A stretch of DNA of 34,384 nt from an uncultured Pelagibacteraceae bacterium (GTDB lineage Bacteria > Pseudomonadota > Alphaproteobacteria > Pelagibacterales > Pelagibacteraceae). The translations under genes were made by a program, and so were the position numbers. This document shows positions 17,471 to 25,882 of this stretch, one piece after another. The stretch covers positions 1 through 34,384 of the forward strand of contig CACCBT010000006.1 of assembly GCA_902544345.1 (NCBI GenBank), written 5' to 3'. The stretch's first letter is position 1; each line of letters starts with the position of its first letter. Below the pieces are notes generated by a model. It saw only the letters and a list, made by a program, of their open reading frames with translations, had not been told where the DNA came from and searched no databases.

Positions 17471-17731
17471 GTGTTGGTTTTCCAACTATGACGATAAACG
17501 AATTTCGTAATAAACATCACGGACGTGGGGGCAGTACCCACCACCTCCACCATTTACAACTTACGGGGGTGAATTAGGATCGACGGGTGTCTAAAAGCTG
17601 TTCTTTCGTACGAGATGGTTCCGACGTAACGGGCTAATTTATAAATGCAAATCAAAAATTTGCACTTGCAGCTTAATTAACTTAGTTAATTAAGTTACGG
17701 GGTCTTGGGGCACCTGGCAACAGAACGCCCC
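17471..17731 (+). ncRNA. ssrA: Two-piece, circularly permuted tmRNA: acceptor piece ~17471-17552 (CCA at 17550-17552), spacer 17553-17564, coding piece ~17565-17731
   Basis: GGACGTGGGGGCAGTACCCACCACCTCCACCA, then GGGGGTGAATTAGGATCGACGGG (tmRNA 5' consensus). GGGGGUG pairs with CACCUCC (7 bp, one G-U). Tag frame 17647-17676 reads ANQKFALAA*. Stop codon sits in hairpin CTTAATTAAC-TTA-GTTAATTAAG. 5' and outer end are approximate. Confidence 0.93.
17707..17731 (+). repeat. att-like repeat 1: 3' end of ssrA, GGGGCACCTGGCAACAGAACGCCCC
   Basis: Reference copy; related copies listed below, all in the same orientation. Confidence 0.9.
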
Positions 17732-18242: not shown

Positions 18243-18526
18243 TATTTGCTTGGCCCCCAAATTTTTCCACCCCAAAGATAACTTAAATGAACATAGCACA
18301 TTTTAAAAGAAATTAATCCGCCAATGAACAACAAATAATAGACCCAAGTACTTTCAGCCCAACTAATTGCGAGCCAAATCAAACCTACTCCAAGCGTAAG
18401 ATCAATTAACGCCCAAGCAATCATCGTCCACTTAGGGAATGATTTTCTTAAATCTTTTTTATCTCCAGACCAATAAACCTTTTTAGTATAATCTCTTGTT
18501 GAGTATTGGCTCTTTCTTTTTTTCAT
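18242..18526 (-). CDS. Small membrane protein (two hydrophobic segments)
   Basis: WTMIAWALIDLTLGVGLIWLAI and WVYYLLFIGGLISFKM; overlaps flanking genes. Confidence 0.65.
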   Translation of the reverse strand: MKKRKSQYSTRDYTKKVYWSGDKKDLRKSFPKWTMIAWALIDLTLGVGLIWLAISWAESTWVYYLLFIGGLISFKMCYVHLSYLWGGKIWGPSK

Positions 18527-19221
18527 TTTCCGATCTTATCACTCTTTTCTAAATTATGTCTTCTGCAATAAAGTCTAATATTTTTTGCATCTTTAGATGT
18601 TCCACCTTTGCTAAAAGGGATGATGTGATCGTAGTGTAGATGATCAGTTGATCCGCATTTAACACATTTGCCTTTATCTCTATTAAAGACTTCAATTTGA
18701 ACTTCACCAGGTATAATCCGATTATCTTCTTTTAAGTTATCTTTATTAATTTGATATCCATCTACTTTTTCATCTGTTAATAATAATTTAAATTTAAATA
18801 CCATTCTTCCACCTGATTTTTCCTCCCAACCATCAACAAGTTTGAAAACGCCGTTGAAAGTCCACATTCCAGGTTTAATTTTTTGATAAACTCTTATTTT
18901 TTCTGGATCTTTTAACCCATCTTTAAAAAAATGAGATGCTTTCATGAATTTTCCGTTCTCTGTTAATTTGCCATTCGGCGATGCAATTGGCTGATCGAAT
19001 GTATTTGGATCTTTATTTTTGCAATATCTTTTATTTAAATTATGGCCTTCATAAATAATCTCTTTTCCATCTTCACTTATTTTATCTTTGTATGGAGCGT
19101 TTTTAGCAACAGACATTAAAACAATGCTATAATTTTTATCTTTTATTTTGAAATTCATTCCTCGTTCTGGTCTGAAACCCTCAATCTCTTCTATTTTGCG
19201 ATATGGAATAATTTCGTTCAC
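18523..19221 (-). CDS. HNH endonuclease with N-terminal SRA/YDG-like domain (candidate type IV restriction enzyme); likely GTG start at 19221
   Basis: C-terminal CVKCGSTDHLHYDHIIPFSKGGTSKDAKNIRLYCRRHN (HNH); N-terminal IIYEGHNLN as in SRA-like HNH proteins. MPTSESSYDES upstream is antisense cassette-end repeat. Confidence 0.75.
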   Translation of the reverse strand: MNEIIPYRKIEEIEGFRPERGMNFKIKDKNYSIVLMSVAKNAPYKDKISEDGKEIIYEGHNLNKRYCKNKDPNTFDQPIASPNGKLTENGKFMKASHFFKDGLKDPEKIRVYQKIKPGMWTFNGVFKLVDGWEEKSGGRMVFKFKLLLTDEKVDGYQINKDNLKEDNRIIPGEVQIEVFNRDKGKCVKCGSTDHLHYDHIIPFSKGGTSKDAKNIRLYCRRHNLEKSDKIGK

Positions 19222-19266
19222 GGACTCATCATAACTGGACTCACTGGTGGGCACAATACGGACTCA
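19222..19266 (+). repeat. Cassette A right-end repeats: GGACTCA at 19222, 19237 and 19260
   Basis: Three exact heptamers; region shared with 28199-28228 and, diverged, ~30111-30143. Confidence 0.8.
19228..19256 (-). promoter_or_regulatory. Predicted promoter TTGTGC-N17-TATGAT, 6 nt before the GTG start (leaderless)
   Basis: Same spacing and position at 28190-28218 and 30104-30132. Confidence 0.6.
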
Positions 19267-19327: not shown

Positions 19328-19351
19328 GGGCACCTGGCAACAGAACGCCCC
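19328..19351 (+). repeat. att-like repeat 2 (A/B boundary)
   Basis: GGGCACCTGGCAACAGAACGCCCC, inside the longer hairpin GGTTAAGGGC...GCCCCTTAACC (19322-19357). Confidence 0.9.
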
Positions 19352-19399
19352 TTAACCAACGGAAACCGTTGATCCGATTAAAATATCAAATTTAGAACA

Positions 19400-19433
19400 A
19401 CACGAAGTTTTACACGAAGTTTACACGAAGTTT
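19400..19433 (+). repeat. Cassette B left-end repeats ACACGAAGTTT x3, 12/11-bp period
   Basis: ACACGAAGTTTTACACGAAGTTTACACGAAGTTT; same unit recurs at 24607-24674. Confidence 0.85.
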
Positions 19434-20204: not shown

Positions 20205-21005
20205 ATGGCAGAAAAAATGAATAATCTCTCAGGTAGTGAATGGTTACAGGAGTCATTTTCTATTTGGAGAGGGATCAAGAAAACTAAAGAAGAATTACTA
20301 ACAAAACACCCTGCTTTATTCCCTCAAAAATTACCTCAAAAATTAATAAATCTTTACACAAAAAAAAATGGTGAGTTAATACTAGATCCCTTCATGGGAA
20401 TCGGTTCTACTTTATTGGGATCCATGAACTCAGGTGTAAAATCTATTGGTTTAGATTTAAATAAATCATATGTCTCACTAGCAAAAAAGAGAATTAAAAA
20501 ATATCAAAAAGATTTGTTTAATGAAAAAAAAGTCTTTGAACCTAAAGTTATATGTGATGATGCAAATAATCTTTTAAAATATGTAAAAAAAGAAAGTGTA
20601 GATCTAGCAATAACATCTCCACCATACTGGAACATTTTAAATCAAAAAAGAACTGCTGATCATAAAGAAATTAGAACTTACTCTAAATCAAAAAAAGATT
20701 TAGGAAATATTGAAGATTACGAAAAATTTTTAAATTCTCTAAAAGAAGTGTTTTCAAAAGTATATGATGCACTTAAATTCAACAAAAGATGTATCTCTGT
20801 AGTTATGGATATCAGGAAAAAAGACAAGTTTTTCCCCTTACATGAAGATCAAACAAGAATAATGAAAGAAATAGGTTTTGAGTTAGAGGAATATGTAATT
20901 TGGGATAGACAAATAGATTATAATAATATGAAAACCTTGGGGTACCCATATGTTTTTAGATTTAACAAAGTGCATGAATTTATATGCATATATTGGAAAA
21001 GATAA
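20205..21005 (+). CDS. DNA methyltransferase (N4-cytosine/N6-adenine amino-MTase)
   Basis: Catalytic TSPPYWN; SAM motif LDPFMGIGSTLLGSMNSGVKSIGLDLN. Confidence 0.88.
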   Translation: MAEKMNNLSGSEWLQESFSIWRGIKKTKEELLTKHPALFPQKLPQKLINLYTKKNGELILDPFMGIGSTLLGSMNSGVKSIGLDLNKSYVSLAKKRIKKYQKDLFNEKKVFEPKVICDDANNLLKYVKKESVDLAITSPPYWNILNQKRTADHKEIRTYSKSKKDLGNIEDYEKFLNSLKEVFSKVYDALKFNKRCISVVMDIRKKDKFFPLHEDQTRIMKEIGFELEEYVIWDRQIDYNNMKTLGYPYVFRFNKVHEFICIYWKR

Positions 21006-21758
21006 TTAAAATAAATTCTTAAAAATTAATTTTTTATTACATTTTTTTTCTATATAAACTTTAACTTCATTTGCAGTTTCTGACCTTATAGTTCTTGGAA
21101 GTCCTATAAAATTAAATTCTTTTTCTAAATCTTTATAAAGTTCATGAAATTTATTAAAATTATTTAATTTTAATTCTTTTGATAAAAAATCTTTAAATGA
21201 GGACATTTCTCTAAAATCGATATTAACTCTTGGTGTTGTGGAACCTGATGAAAAATAGTTTCGATTTTGTTTTTCTGTGAATAATGTTTTGATTTTTTCT
21301 ATATAATCACAAAAAATTAATTCAGGGTTATATGTACATAATGCAAGTACTGCTACTTTAATTCCTGCTTTTTGATAAAGCATGTAAGTTGTATATGCTT
21401 CTCTTTCAATTAAACCTAAATTGTCTAAAGTAATATTTTCATTCAAAGTTTTATTAATTAAATCTGGTAAAGTTTTTAAATAAACAGGAGTAAACATTAC
21501 CTTTGTGTCTAAAAAAAAACTTTCGATTTTATTACTTTTATCTAGAACAATTAAATCTGGTAAATATCTTAGCATCAAGATGGTCTTGTTTTTCTTCAAA
21601 AAATCTGATTGCCAAACATTTGGTTGTTCTTTTGTTAAAGATTGTTTGAATTTTTCTGTGGGTAATACAATTAGATCTAAATCCTGAAAAAATTTAGTTA
21701 TTTTATTTTCTAAGACTTTTCCTATGGGTAATCTCAAATCTGTAAAATTATTACTCAT
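21006..21758 (-). CDS. Putative PD-(D/E)xK restriction endonuclease
   Basis: LPDLIVLDKSNKIESFFLDTK fits PD-Xn-DxK; located in an MTase operon. Confidence 0.6.
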   Translation of the reverse strand: MSNNFTDLRLPIGKVLENKITKFFQDLDLIVLPTEKFKQSLTKEQPNVWQSDFLKKNKTILMLRYLPDLIVLDKSNKIESFFLDTKVMFTPVYLKTLPDLINKTLNENITLDNLGLIEREAYTTYMLYQKAGIKVAVLALCTYNPELIFCDYIEKIKTLFTEKQNRNYFSSGSTTPRVNIDFREMSSFKDFLSKELKLNNFNKFHELYKDLEKEFNFIGLPRTIRSETANEVKVYIEKKCNKKLIFKNLF

Positions 21759-21759
21759 T

Positions 21760-22431
21760 TTACATTTTAAAATTTAATTGATTTGAATTTTTATTTTTAG
21801 TTGGTTTTTTTTTAACATTTACCTCTAATTTACCATACTCATTTCCCCAACCTTTAAATCCAATTCTTTTCTGTCTTGCAAAAACATCGAGTTTTTTTCC
21901 TTTAAAATATTTATGAATTAGTTGATAAAATTCATCGGGTTTAACAGAATGTGCAGATGAACTTGCGGCAAAACATGTTTTCATTTTTCCTAAACATTTT
22001 TTTTCAAATTTTGCTGTCCCTTTATAACCAAATAACAAATGTTCTGTTGTAATTTGATAAGGACCAAATGGACAAGGTCCAGTTTTCTTATCCCATGTAA
22101 TCATAGTATAGAAATTAAATCCCCATTCATTCAGTAAATCAAAACCAGTTTTTATTATTGGTTCTTTTGTTTTTTTATCTTTACTATTTGTTACCCATAA
22201 CCAAATAAAACAATTATTTTTTGACCATTCATTAATTGGAAGTTTTATAATTTCTTCTTTGCTTAAAGTTGGATAATCTAATTTTTTTGTTTGATTAGGT
22301 CTTACTCCCCTATAACCTGTTTTACCTTGATTCCATGGTGGGTCGACTACCAAAACATCGAACTTTTCAGTGTTCTTAATTTTGCATTTTCTGCTAATTT
22401 TATCAAAATATTGTTTAATATTTTTATTCAT
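21760..22431 (-). CDS. MT-A70-family adenine methyltransferase
   Basis: DVLVVDPPWNQGKTGYRGVRPNQ (DPPW) and RPNQTKKLDYPTLSKEEIIKLPI typical of MT-A70. Confidence 0.88.
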   Translation of the reverse strand: MNKNIKQYFDKISRKCKIKNTEKFDVLVVDPPWNQGKTGYRGVRPNQTKKLDYPTLSKEEIIKLPINEWSKNNCFIWLWVTNSKDKKTKEPIIKTGFDLLNEWGFNFYTMITWDKKTGPCPFGPYQITTEHLLFGYKGTAKFEKKCLGKMKTCFAASSSAHSVKPDEFYQLIHKYFKGKKLDVFARQKRIGFKGWGNEYGKLEVNVKKKPTKNKNSNQLNFKM

Positions 22432-22915
22432 CTAGTAACCTTCTGCATGCTAATGGTATAATTGATTCTTTTCTAATATTTTCATTATCATCATTAAAGG
22501 CAAAAATAATTAAATTCTTATCATTATAATTTACTAGTTTTTTATTAAAATTATCATCGATCATGAAGAAACTAATTTCTTCAGAGTGACCTTTGCGAGA
22601 AATCAAGAAAGAGAATGTTGGGTTTATTATTTTATTAAAGCACATAATCTCCCCTATCTCTCTCAAACCTACTGACTTGTGTGTTCTATTTATTAGCATA
22701 ATCTCAAATTTTTCATTCGATGTGTTTTGAATAATAACAGTGAAATCTGGAGTAAAGCACCAACTTGAATAACTTTTAAAATTTTTAATATATTCATTAT
22801 TAATTTTTGATAAATCTTCTGATTTAATAATGTCTACTAATTTATAATTTTTTTGTTTTGATATGAATTTTTTAATCCAAATTTCAATTTTATTTTCTAA
22901 AATACTATCAGACAT
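22424..22915 (-). CDS. Degenerate PD-(D/E)xK-like protein, similar to the C-terminus of the 553-aa neighbour
   Basis: TPDFTVIIQNTSNEKFEIMLINR...LREIGEIMCFNKIINPTFSFLISRK aligns with RPDIIGISKKSNKIFFIESK...VKELGQIWSYSVLANPFQSFLISTK. Confidence 0.55.
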   Translation of the reverse strand: MSDSILENKIEIWIKKFISKQKNYKLVDIIKSEDLSKINNEYIKNFKSYSSWCFTPDFTVIIQNTSNEKFEIMLINRTHKSVGLREIGEIMCFNKIINPTFSFLISRKGHSEEISFFMIDDNFNKKLVNYNDKNLIIFAFNDDNENIRKESIIPLACRRLLDE

Positions 22916-24569
22916 TAAATAGTTTTACTCCTTTTTTGATATTAAATTGACCAAAAATAATTTCTTTATTTTCGTTAAAATTTAAAAACTTTTTATCTTT
23001 ATTTTGTGCATAAACATTTAACAGAGATTTTGATATTTCTTTAGTAGAGATCAAAAAACTTTGGAAAGGATTTGCTAGAACTGAATACGACCAAATTTGT
23101 CCTAATTCTTTTACACCTAAGGAAACAATTTTACTTTCTATAAAGAAAATTTTATTCGATTTTTTTGATATACCAATTATGTCTGGTCGAATATTTAGAT
23201 CGTCTAAATTCTTGATTTTTTGTCTATATTTATCTGATGCCTTAAAATTCATTGAAAAATAATTTGCTAGAGTTTGAGATGATGTATCAAAAACATCACT
23301 ATCTTCATTAAATTTTTGTTTTATATAAGATTTCAACCAAATTATTAGGGGTTTATAAGTATCAATTTCAGAGATATTTTTATTTCTTTTTTTAATTTTA
23401 GTTTTAACTTTTTTTGGATGAGTTTTAATTATCTCCTCAAATTTTTTTTTTGCAGTTTGATTAAATATTTCATTAATCTTTTTAAAATCAGTTTTTTCTT
23501 TACTTCCATTAATTTGATAGATACTTTTGTTTTTAGAACTTAGCATTTCCTTTTCTAAATTTTTACAACCCATAAATAAATTTATTTGCCAGGAAGCATT
23601 TATATGTTTTCCTCTCAATCTTTCAGAGATTCTTATGTCATTATTCATAGGATGATATGGTTTTATATCTTTTTGCTCTATCTTTCGATTTGCTACTAAC
23701 CAATCTTCCACTTTATTATTAAAATCAACTTTTTGATTATGATTTAACAATTCTTTAAATAAAGTTTTTTTAGGTTCTAATCTTATTTTAAAGTTTTGAA
23801 GAGTTTCAGGCAGTAGTTTTATTTGATGTTCTTTGAAAGCACCATTTGGAGACTGCTGATGATGAAAATAATCTAAGGATGGATCAACAATATTTGGATG
23901 CCCCCACCTTATAGTTTGTGTTGGAATTTTAAAATTATCCCTTAAAAAGTTGTCAATTTGAATTGGTAAATTCCAATTTCTTACAATTTGCAAGTATACT
24001 CTCATCCTGGTATTTCCATTTTTTCCAGTTCTTGGATACCAGTTTCCTTGATTGAAAAAACCACATGTATCTAACAATCCATTAACAAACTCTGTTTTAA
24101 ATTCATTGCTCTCTTTGTTTAAACCGTCATCTATCTCAAAATTATCAAAACCAGTTTTTCCATGAAAAAAAATTGTTATAAATTCAATAATTTTTTTACT
24201 CTTAATATCTAAAATCAATATAGTTGTTGAATCTGTTGATAAAATTTGATGTTCAAAAGATAAGTTTTTTTTTAAAAAAGGTATAATATTTTCATCAATT
24301 GATTTTCGTGCATTTTCTTTTTGATTAAATATTTTTCTTACATTTCTATCAATGCAATTACTTCTTGAATTATTACAATTTGAGTTTTTACATTTTAAAA
24401 GATCAGAAAAACCAGTTGCTAACCATCCACATTTGGGACAATGAGCAATACCTTCAAGATATTTGTCTTTATGATTAAAATTTATTGCTAAGTTATTATT
24501 ACTTAAAATATTTCCTTTTCCACAAATCAAACCTAATAAATAAAATAAACCTGTATTTTTCATTATCAC
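22908..24569 (-). CDS. Putative endonuclease: degenerate LAGLIDADG-like motifs, zinc-ribbon-like Cys cluster, C-terminal PD-(D/E)xK domain
   Basis: FYLLGLICGKGNI and FVNGLLDTCGFF (LAGLIDADG-like); CPKCGWLATGFSDLLKCKNSNC; RPDIIGISKKSNKIFFIESK. Confidence 0.6.
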   Translation of the reverse strand: MIMKNTGLFYLLGLICGKGNILSNNNLAINFNHKDKYLEGIAHCPKCGWLATGFSDLLKCKNSNCNNSRSNCIDRNVRKIFNQKENARKSIDENIIPFLKKNLSFEHQILSTDSTTILILDIKSKKIIEFITIFFHGKTGFDNFEIDDGLNKESNEFKTEFVNGLLDTCGFFNQGNWYPRTGKNGNTRMRVYLQIVRNWNLPIQIDNFLRDNFKIPTQTIRWGHPNIVDPSLDYFHHQQSPNGAFKEHQIKLLPETLQNFKIRLEPKKTLFKELLNHNQKVDFNNKVEDWLVANRKIEQKDIKPYHPMNNDIRISERLRGKHINASWQINLFMGCKNLEKEMLSSKNKSIYQINGSKEKTDFKKINEIFNQTAKKKFEEIIKTHPKKVKTKIKKRNKNISEIDTYKPLIIWLKSYIKQKFNEDSDVFDTSSQTLANYFSMNFKASDKYRQKIKNLDDLNIRPDIIGISKKSNKIFFIESKIVSLGVKELGQIWSYSVLANPFQSFLISTKEISKSLLNVYAQNKDKKFLNFNENKEIIFGQFNIKKGVKLFNV

Positions 24570-24606: not shown

Positions 24607-24674
24607 ACACGAAGTTGAAAGTCAAGAAATCGGCAAAATGAGCAAAACACTACACGAAGTTTTACACGAAGTTT
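24607..24674 (+). repeat. Cassette B right-end repeats ACACGAAGTT at 24607, 24652, 24664
   Basis: Same unit and orientation as 19400-19433. Confidence 0.85.
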
Positions 24675-24708: not shown

Positions 24709-24730
24709 GGGACGAGAAACAGAACGCCCC
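24709..24730 (+). repeat. att-like repeat 3 (B/C boundary), left half diverged: GGGACGAGAAACAGAACGCCCC
   Basis: Shares AACAGAACGCCCC with repeat 1. Confidence 0.8.
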
Positions 24731-24731
24731 T

Positions 24732-25757
24732 TTAATTTAAATATTTATCCAAAGTTTTTTTATCTGAGACGATAATAAAATCATCAAAATGAATAGATTG
24801 ATTGGGGTATTTAATTCCAATTTGTTTTCCCGAGTCTCTATAAACACCTATTCTTACATTAGTACCAGTGGATTCTCCTTTCCAATCAGATGTTATACCT
24901 TTGTAATCAAATATTAATTTATTATCTTTGAAGATTTCTACAAAACCAGTTTCTTGTCTAGTATTATAAATGCCAATTTTGTAAGTGGTCCATTTTCCTA
25001 ATTTAGTAATTTTTAATGATTTATTTTGTGTAAGTTTAAAATTATTTTTTATTTTTTTTTCACCTCTAGTTTTTTCTTGAAACACTAACCAATTTGAATC
25101 ATTTTTTTTATATTTTATATCAATACGATGCTTAATATTATCTTCTTTATTCCTTCTATTGAAACCAGTACCCGCAGTATTGCCGACTATTTTTAATGTT
25201 TTCCCAGTATCATCAAAACTTATTCTTACAAGAGGATGCGTTCTCATAGATGCATCTCGATTTTTAAATTCAAAAAACGTTACTCTGCCATCTATATGTT
25301 TAAAATCTTCAGGAAGTCTTGTTTTAAAACCAATCCATATTTCTTTATTTAAAGTGCTTCTTTGCTTTGTCTCAAATATTGCTCTTTCTGTCTCTTTTCC
25401 TGACCCTTCTTTAAGAGGATCATTATTCCATCCGTGTTTCAATGTAACTTCAAGATACTTATTGCCATCAAGATCTTTTTTAACTTTAAATGGTTTTAAA
25501 CCTGCTCCCTTATCATAGATTCGAAATATTTGGTTGAATGATTTTTCTGTACCCCCACCAGTAGCAGGATTTGAAGATGAAGGGTTAAGGTTGGCAACTT
25601 TTAGTTTTCCTTCTTCTTGATTTTCAAAGTCCTCAAAGAAATTCCATGGCGACTTTACCTTTTTATTTACATAATCTGGAACAGGTACCTTTTCCCAACT
25701 AAATGTAGTAATTGGAAATGATAAAATAAAAATAATTATAAATAAAATTATCCTCAT
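24732..25757 (-). CDS. Secreted polysaccharide lyase-like protein (heparin-lyase-type jelly roll)
   Basis: Signal peptide MRIILFIIIFILSFPITTFSW; WIGFKTRLPEDF..., GKWTTYKIGI, NQSIHFDDFIIV strand pattern. Confidence 0.55.
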   Translation of the reverse strand: MRIILFIIIFILSFPITTFSWEKVPVPDYVNKKVKSPWNFFEDFENQEEGKLKVANLNPSSSNPATGGGTEKSFNQIFRIYDKGAGLKPFKVKKDLDGNKYLEVTLKHGWNNDPLKEGSGKETERAIFETKQRSTLNKEIWIGFKTRLPEDFKHIDGRVTFFEFKNRDASMRTHPLVRISFDDTGKTLKIVGNTAGTGFNRRNKEDNIKHRIDIKYKKNDSNWLVFQEKTRGEKKIKNNFKLTQNKSLKITKLGKWTTYKIGIYNTRQETGFVEIFKDNKLIFDYKGITSDWKGESTGTNVRIGVYRDSGKQIGIKYPNQSIHFDDFIIVSDKKTLDKYLN

Positions 25758-25882
25758 TATGAAAGAATATAAGAATATTATTAAAACAAATAAATACATT
25801 TATTTGTTTTAATAAATTGAAATATAAATTTTAGTGCAATTTCAGGTTCTAGGGTACGATAAGAGAGTACTTGCCCCCAATT

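Follow-up and report, generated by a model that had tools for sequence, protein, structure and literature searches.

A LAGLIDADG domain lacking its metal-binding acids, fused to a PD-(D/E)xK nuclease domain, in a candidate Type II restriction-modification cassette of an uncultured Pelagibacteraceae bacterium

The heterodimeric Type IIT and Type IIS restriction enzymes, such as BtsI, BsrDI and BspD6I/BstNBI, combine a large recognition subunit with a small subunit of the PD-(D/E)xK nuclease fold (hereafter PD), are accompanied by two DNA methyltransferases (MTases), as is general among the characterised Type IIT enzymes, and act on an asymmetric site (PMC4081073, PMC2909958). Here we describe a gene set that resembles them in a stretch of 34,384 nucleotides from an uncultured Pelagibacteraceae bacterium (GenBank assembly GCA_902544345.1, contig CACCBT010000006.1, positions 1 to 34,384 of the forward strand; the whole stretch is referred to as the window, and the genome is ~60% complete). 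Its main gene encodes a LAGLIDADG domain (hereafter LAG) fused to a PD domain, and we assign it, with fairly high confidence, to a Type II (IIT/IIS-like) restriction-modification (R-M) system with an asymmetric DNA site, in which it would be the main restriction subunit.

Of the features of the Type IIT enzymes, two subunits and two MTases are present in this locus, but only one active-looking PD site is found in the clade of the window. In BtsI, a PD-EXK motif has been reported in the large subunit (residues 57-72) and a LAGLIDADG fold has not (PMC2909958), whereas the LAG subunit in its canonical form matched LAGLIDADG folds, the comparison being one by description. Unlike in the BtsI-type enzymes, the recognition part here would be a dead LAGLIDADG domain, and the small subunit is probably inactive in the clade of fused proteins. 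The assignment of BtsI and BsrDI to the same family is disfavoured by the reported motif position, which sets them apart by description and not by sequence. MhoVII of Mycoplasma hominis, with its fused MTases, was considered and rejected, since it methylates GATG/CATC and has different MTase classes (PMC12898733).

Among the homing endonucleases, I-DmoI, I-Tsp061I and PI-SceI share with the window protein the two-repeat LAGLIDADG fold, both motifs and profile homology; unlike them, all the members of the family described below have lost the catalytic acids and belong to an R-M operon, not to an intron or intein. WhiA (DUF199) also uses a catalytically dead LAGLIDADG fold in DNA binding, but it carries a helix-turn-helix domain and regulates transcription, while the partners here are a PD nuclease and MTases. 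Furthermore, fusions of inactive I-SceI with PvuII have been engineered (Fonfara et al. 2012, cited in PMC3857828), in which the dead LAGLIDADG protein binds DNA and the restriction nuclease cuts; as far as the citing paper describes them, they are man-made and work without MTases. The HNH, GIY-YIG and PD-(D/E)XK nuclease folds are common to homing endonucleases and restriction enzymes, but the literature that we consulted gives LAGLIDADG no role in restriction. If our reading is true, LAGLIDADG enters restriction as the targeting part and not as the cutter, and the family appears to be the natural counterpart of the engineered dead-meganuclease fusions. Since the site specificity of LAGLIDADG proteins can be changed by engineering, such enzymes could help in the design of nickases and cutters.

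The LAGLIDADG and PD domains

The open reading frame (22908-24569, minus strand) codes for 553 amino acids (aa) when read from a GTG; a start at the ATG in 24563, giving 551 aa, is favoured by the alignment with relatives, and all residue numbers of the LAG-PD protein refer to this version. The full-length protein was modelled with AlphaFold2 from 67 alignment rows, and the predicted local distance difference test (pLDDT) exceeded 90 over most of the LAGLIDADG core and of the PD core. When this model was searched with Foldseek, the 29 matches at E<=1e-3 were all LAGLIDADG nucleases or WhiA, and because nothing else was matched at this threshold, the predicted structure confirms that the resemblance of the N-terminal part to LAGLIDADG proteins is far above chance. 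With VIA-align, residues 1-286 gave Z 15.5 for I-Tsp061I (188 residues), 15.4 for PI-SceI, 13.5 for I-DmoI and 13.0 for WhiA. A free-standing LAG relative from Ruminococcus torques, predicted with a pLDDT of 91 and a predicted template modelling score (pTM) of 0.90, again matched LAGLIDADG proteins, as it did in a viral structure library. Sequence-only searches of the PDB gave no match for LAG, and chance cryptochrome matches only for PD. In addition, hhalign against genuine intein LAGLIDADG nucleases gave E-values of 1.5e-4 to 1.9e-4, and at 1.5e-4 both motifs were kept in register (YLLGLLVGDGTL / FLRGLFDADGSV). A first-pass annotation of this DNA, made from the sequence alone, had pointed to two LAGLIDADG-like motifs with K and C at the acid sites; these are K16 and C167, and both the register and the predicted fold bear it out.

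The same annotation asked whether homologs keep the acids, and they do not. At position 16, the acid site of motif 1, the 87 aligned members carry N (80), K (4) or R (3), and at position 167, that of motif 2, they carry T (83), A (3) or C (1), so that D or E is found at neither site in any of them (0/87), while the intein homologs used for comparison mostly have D (VGDG / DADG). The loss is therefore old and family-wide, and not peculiar to the window gene. Of the features of a LAGLIDADG homing endonuclease, the two-repeat alpha-beta-beta-alpha-beta-beta-alpha fold is supported by the predicted structures and the profile comparison; the acidic metal-binding residue that ends each motif is absent, and the genes are free-standing in R-M operons at the 86 loci inspected, not in introns or inteins. 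Despite an identity of only ~25% between the window LAG and most members, H222, P223, N224, D227, E245, H246, Q247 and K249 are unchanged in 87/87 sequences (about window 23817-23900), which possibly reflects a target site in common, contacts to phosphates or a cryptic active site.

A Cys cluster had also been noticed. The cluster (C42/C45/C58/C63) is an insertion within the first LAGLIDADG repeat, between motifs 1 and 2, and is common to the four fusion-type proteins. A zf-tcix match in one of them, L012, was weak (E 3.6e-5, under the curated cut-off), and the zf-tcix, DUF234, Hom_end (E 0.24) and PPL4 matches were all rejected as too weak for an assignment of LAG or PD.

The C-terminal PD site that had been proposed was recovered as D461...E476-x-K478 on a matching predicted fold: with VIA-align, residues 396-551 superimposed on the EN domain of PaqCI (8epx; Z 9.8, rmsd 3.1, 123 aa) and on AF1548 (1y88; Z 9.5). 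PaqCI, a Type IIS enzyme, differs in that a single chain also contains the target-recognition domain, and LAGLIDADG is not mentioned for it (PMC10201449). Among the 90 PD sequences compared, D is conserved in 90 and E and K in 86, and the four sequences without E and K are all small subunits of fusion-type systems. The window subunit of 163 aa retains D57 and has N76 for E and T78 for K; judged by these substitutions, it is a probable catalytically dead partner.

A family linked to two methyltransferases

With the LAGLIDADG part alone as query, 121 relatives were found in 84,980 species genomes, of which 80 were kept, and further relatives came from two phage genomes, two plasmids and three viral contigs. 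The hosts include Clostridia, Bacteroidales, Spirochaetes, Elusimicrobia, Streptococcus suis and archaea; the family is thus present in gut bacteria, archaea, phages and plasmids, and it escapes the defence-system models applied. A viral scan with the window protein as single query gave no relatives, and an alignment query was needed. At order level, no homolog was found in the other genomes of 297, and therefore few members of this lineage carry the system. No family of Pfam, NCBIfam, PADLOC or PHROGs covers LAG or PD, and in annotated phage and plasmid records both are labelled 'hypothetical protein'. The class is called undescribed here in the sense that it was not found in Pfam, NCBIfam, PADLOC or a literature with few subscription journals, REBASE being outside the comparison.

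Most relatives have LAG and PD as two separate proteins, encoded by adjacent genes behind two DNA MTases. The LAG gene codes for ~295 aa, and a PD of ~160 aa follows directly, often overlapping, or is fused to it at 85/86 loci. Two MTase modules, placed by Pfam in the EcoRI_methylase, C5, Eco57I/N6_Mtase with TaqI_C and N6_N4 classes, accompany them at 83/86 loci, the remaining three being truncated by contig starts; restriction genes beside MTase genes, the arrangement of a Type II R-M system, are thus the rule, and in the window the MTases were recognised by Pfam and PADLOC. The pairs are Eco57I-like m6A (N6-methyladenine) plus N6_N4, EcoRI-type m6A plus C5-cytosine (separate or fused) and C5 plus Eco57I-like. 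The divergence of LAG, measured as pairwise distances, parallels that of PD (correlation r 0.81) and that of the MTases (r 0.88-0.91), and the MTase class tracks the LAG tree with few changes. The N6_N4 MTase of the window is homologous to an MTase adjoining the LAG gene in 40 relatives (phmmer, down to 3e-112). This family-wide gene order supports the earlier proposal that the scaffold may be reused for site recognition while another domain would cut. The first-pass annotation had missed that the cassette appears to be a complete R-M set, with a degenerate second PD subunit adjoining.

The architecture of the window is shared by three contigs of metagenome-assembled genomes (L012-L014), one labelled Gastranaerophilales, which encode a LAG-PD fusion of 544 aa, a PD-like protein of 156 aa and, beginning one base past the latter, a convergent N6_N4 MTase. 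They group with the window in the tree with a support of 100/100, on long branches. In the four fusion systems, the fused PD retains D, E and K, and the small PD retains D, with N for E and S/T for K. The MT-A70 enzyme of the window takes the place of the Eco57I-like enzyme of L012-L014, and the 250-aa PD-like protein is an extra.

Many of the R-M systems of the family also adjoin an accessory protein of ~150 aa (L010 5199-5648; L011 2868-3944; L034 3922-5001). In some Lachnospiraceae it reaches ~358 aa and ends in a NOV_C domain (PF13020, E 3.6e-10) that bears an E-x-K motif, and this form is possibly a further nuclease.

Proposed mechanism and alternative readings

With the gene order, the acid loss, the predicted folds and the family-wide linkage established, we propose that the single-chain, two-repeat LAG, without either metal-binding acid, would act as the target-recognition module, that the fused PD would cut the DNA, and that the 163-aa PD-like subunit would pair with the fused PD, probably completing a nuclease heterodimer without cutting. 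The MT-A70 and N6_N4 MTases, which belong to different classes, would protect the host, one strand each. Single-chain proteins with two LAGLIDADG repeats are the type of scaffold that reads asymmetric sites. The presence of two different MTases also points to an asymmetric site, as in the known Type IIT systems (PMC4081073). In the two-gene form, LAG would read the site and recruit a PD dimer, and in the fusion form the pair would consist of one active and one dead PD; that LAG gives the specificity and that the PD pair forms a dimer are what we infer. BtsI is an example of such a division of work between a large recognition subunit and a small nuclease subunit, with the difference in motif position given above (PMC2909958). 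Cutting of both strands would need one active site handling both, or two complexes meeting, and in the fused enzymes of the window clade restriction would go by strand-specific nicking or paired complexes. We lean, with less conviction than for the window gene itself, towards a broad undescribed R-M class that uses dead LAGLIDADG proteins for site recognition, in which the window clade is fused, has one active and one dead PD, and works by nicking or through paired complexes.

Several points weigh against this scheme. The roles of LAG and PD are predicted from sequence and structure, and the domain interface in the AlphaFold2 model of the window protein is uncertain (pTM 0.58, with pLDDT <50 in parts of the linker). 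A PD of ~160 aa, about the size of PvuII, could in principle recognise DNA alone, and one of the two MTases could have its actual nuclease partner in the 250-aa PD-like protein. Moreover, the invariance of HPN, D227 and KEHQxK, in nearly all or all of the 87 sequences, exceeds what is expected for site readout alone, and therefore LAG may hold an unconventional active site.

One alternative is that the LAG protein is a WhiA-like regulator of the R-M genes and the small PD alone a complete restriction enzyme. WhiA, a transcription factor with the LAGLIDADG fold, ranks high among the structural matches (Z 13.0-13.4 over the window protein and the canonical relative). PvuII is itself a complete small restriction enzyme of this size, and nucleases of its size can be specific by themselves. 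However, LAG and PD are fused in four systems of two distant lineages (the window and L012-L014), and therefore both domains belong to one enzyme; a lone homodimeric PD favours a palindromic site and one MTase, whereas two of different class are found, and the second, dead PD subunit of the fusion clade fits a heterodimer. We regard this regulator reading as improbable.

Marginally less probable still is that LAG cuts one strand through a non-canonical site (HPN/D/KEHQxK) and PD the other, for which the eight residues invariant in 87/87 sequences would speak, together with the precedent of BtsI, with its large nicking and small catalytic subunits (PMC2909958). Against it, every member is without both canonical metal-binding acids, KEHQ aligns with an ordinary second-repeat segment in the intein homologs, and the large subunit of BtsI relies on a PD-EXK motif, whereas no such motif was seen in LAG. 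Degeneration is frequent in LAGLIDADG genes once homing is complete, but a decaying homing endonuclease that merely adjoins unrelated MTases is very improbable, being contradicted by the intact frames, the constant gene order and the strong residue conservation across bacteria, archaea, phages and plasmids, with the acid sites taken by conserved residues (N, T) and not by random ones.

The cassette and its surroundings

The fusion gene is the first of four close-packed genes in a minus-strand operon (553-aa, 163-aa, MT-A70 and 250-aa), and it overlaps the 163-aa gene by 8 bp (Table 1). The MT-A70 enzyme would modify to m6A. The 250-aa PD-like protein, whose role is unclear, may be an accessory nuclease or a piece of a second system; in L065, one homolog of it adjoins a member of the family.

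Table 1. Features of the candidate R-M cassette and of its flanks (positions in the window)
Feature	Position	Strand	Basis or remark
Putative main restriction subunit, dead LAGLIDADG and PD-(D/E)xK fusion	22908..24563	-	551 aa from ATG
LAGLIDADG domain, two repeats, residues 1-286, putative target-recognition module	23706..24563	-	AlphaFold2, Foldseek/VIA, hhalign
LAGLIDADG motif 1, YLLGLICGKGNI, residues 8-19, K16 at the catalytic-acid position	24507..24542	-	
LAGLIDADG motif 2, FVNGLLDTCGFF, residues 159-170, C167 at the catalytic-acid position	24054..24089	-	
CxxC...CxxxxC zinc-ribbon-like insertion, C42/C45/C58/C63	24375..24440	-	fusion-type proteins
PD-(D/E)xK nuclease domain, residues 396-551, catalytic D461/E476/K478	22911..23378	-	
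Second PD-(D/E)xK-like subunit, degenerate, 163 aa	22424..22915	-	conservation; same degeneration in L012-L014
MT-A70 family DNA MTase (DPPW), same operon	21760..22431	-	PF05063 E 1.1e-25; PADLOC MTase_II E 2.1e-33
250-aa PD-(D/E)xK-like protein (RYLPDLIVLD...LDTK), same operon	21006..21758	-	sequence
N6_N4 DNA MTase (SPPY), convergent to the operon	20205..21005	+	Pfam PF01555 E 1.2e-29
tmRNA-3'-end direct repeat, att-like, left bound of cassette	19336..19352	+	
tmRNA-3'-end direct repeat, 2 mismatches, right bound of cassette	24715..24731	+	
26-nt direct repeat, ACAACACGAAGTTTTACACGAAGTTT, inner left flank of R-M cassette	19397..19422	+	
26-nt direct repeat, 96% identical, inner right flank of R-M cassette	24649..24674	+	

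In a genome of the same genus (G272), the tmRNA end is joined straight to the post-cassette sequence, with 99.5% identity over 1.3 kb, and therefore the matching site there is empty of the cassette. The 17-mer that resembles the tmRNA 3' end occurs in nine copies between positions 17716 and 33280 of the window (0.01 expected), all on the plus strand, from the tmRNA gene onward and with a spacing of 0.4-5.4 kb. The copies bound small cassettes, with an HNH protein, the R-M cassette, a lyase, hydrolases and others, and the array looks like a series of tandem insertions targeted to the tmRNA gene. No integrase was noticed within the window, and the one tyrosine-recombinase match of the genome is on another contig (C23); the tmRNA repeat had no match when viral contigs were searched.

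In a neighbouring cassette, the HNH endonuclease gene (18523-19254; PF01844 E 1.5e-6) gives a weak N-terminal match to RE_AspBHI_N (E 0.04); this domain is possibly like that of modification-dependent enzymes, and the gene may thus be one of Type IV restriction. On the other side, a polysaccharide-lyase-like gene (24732-25799; L113 10754-11818) is 100% identical between the window and G272, while the ThyX gene beside it is only 92% identical, which suggests that strains have recently exchanged the cassette with the lyase-like gene.
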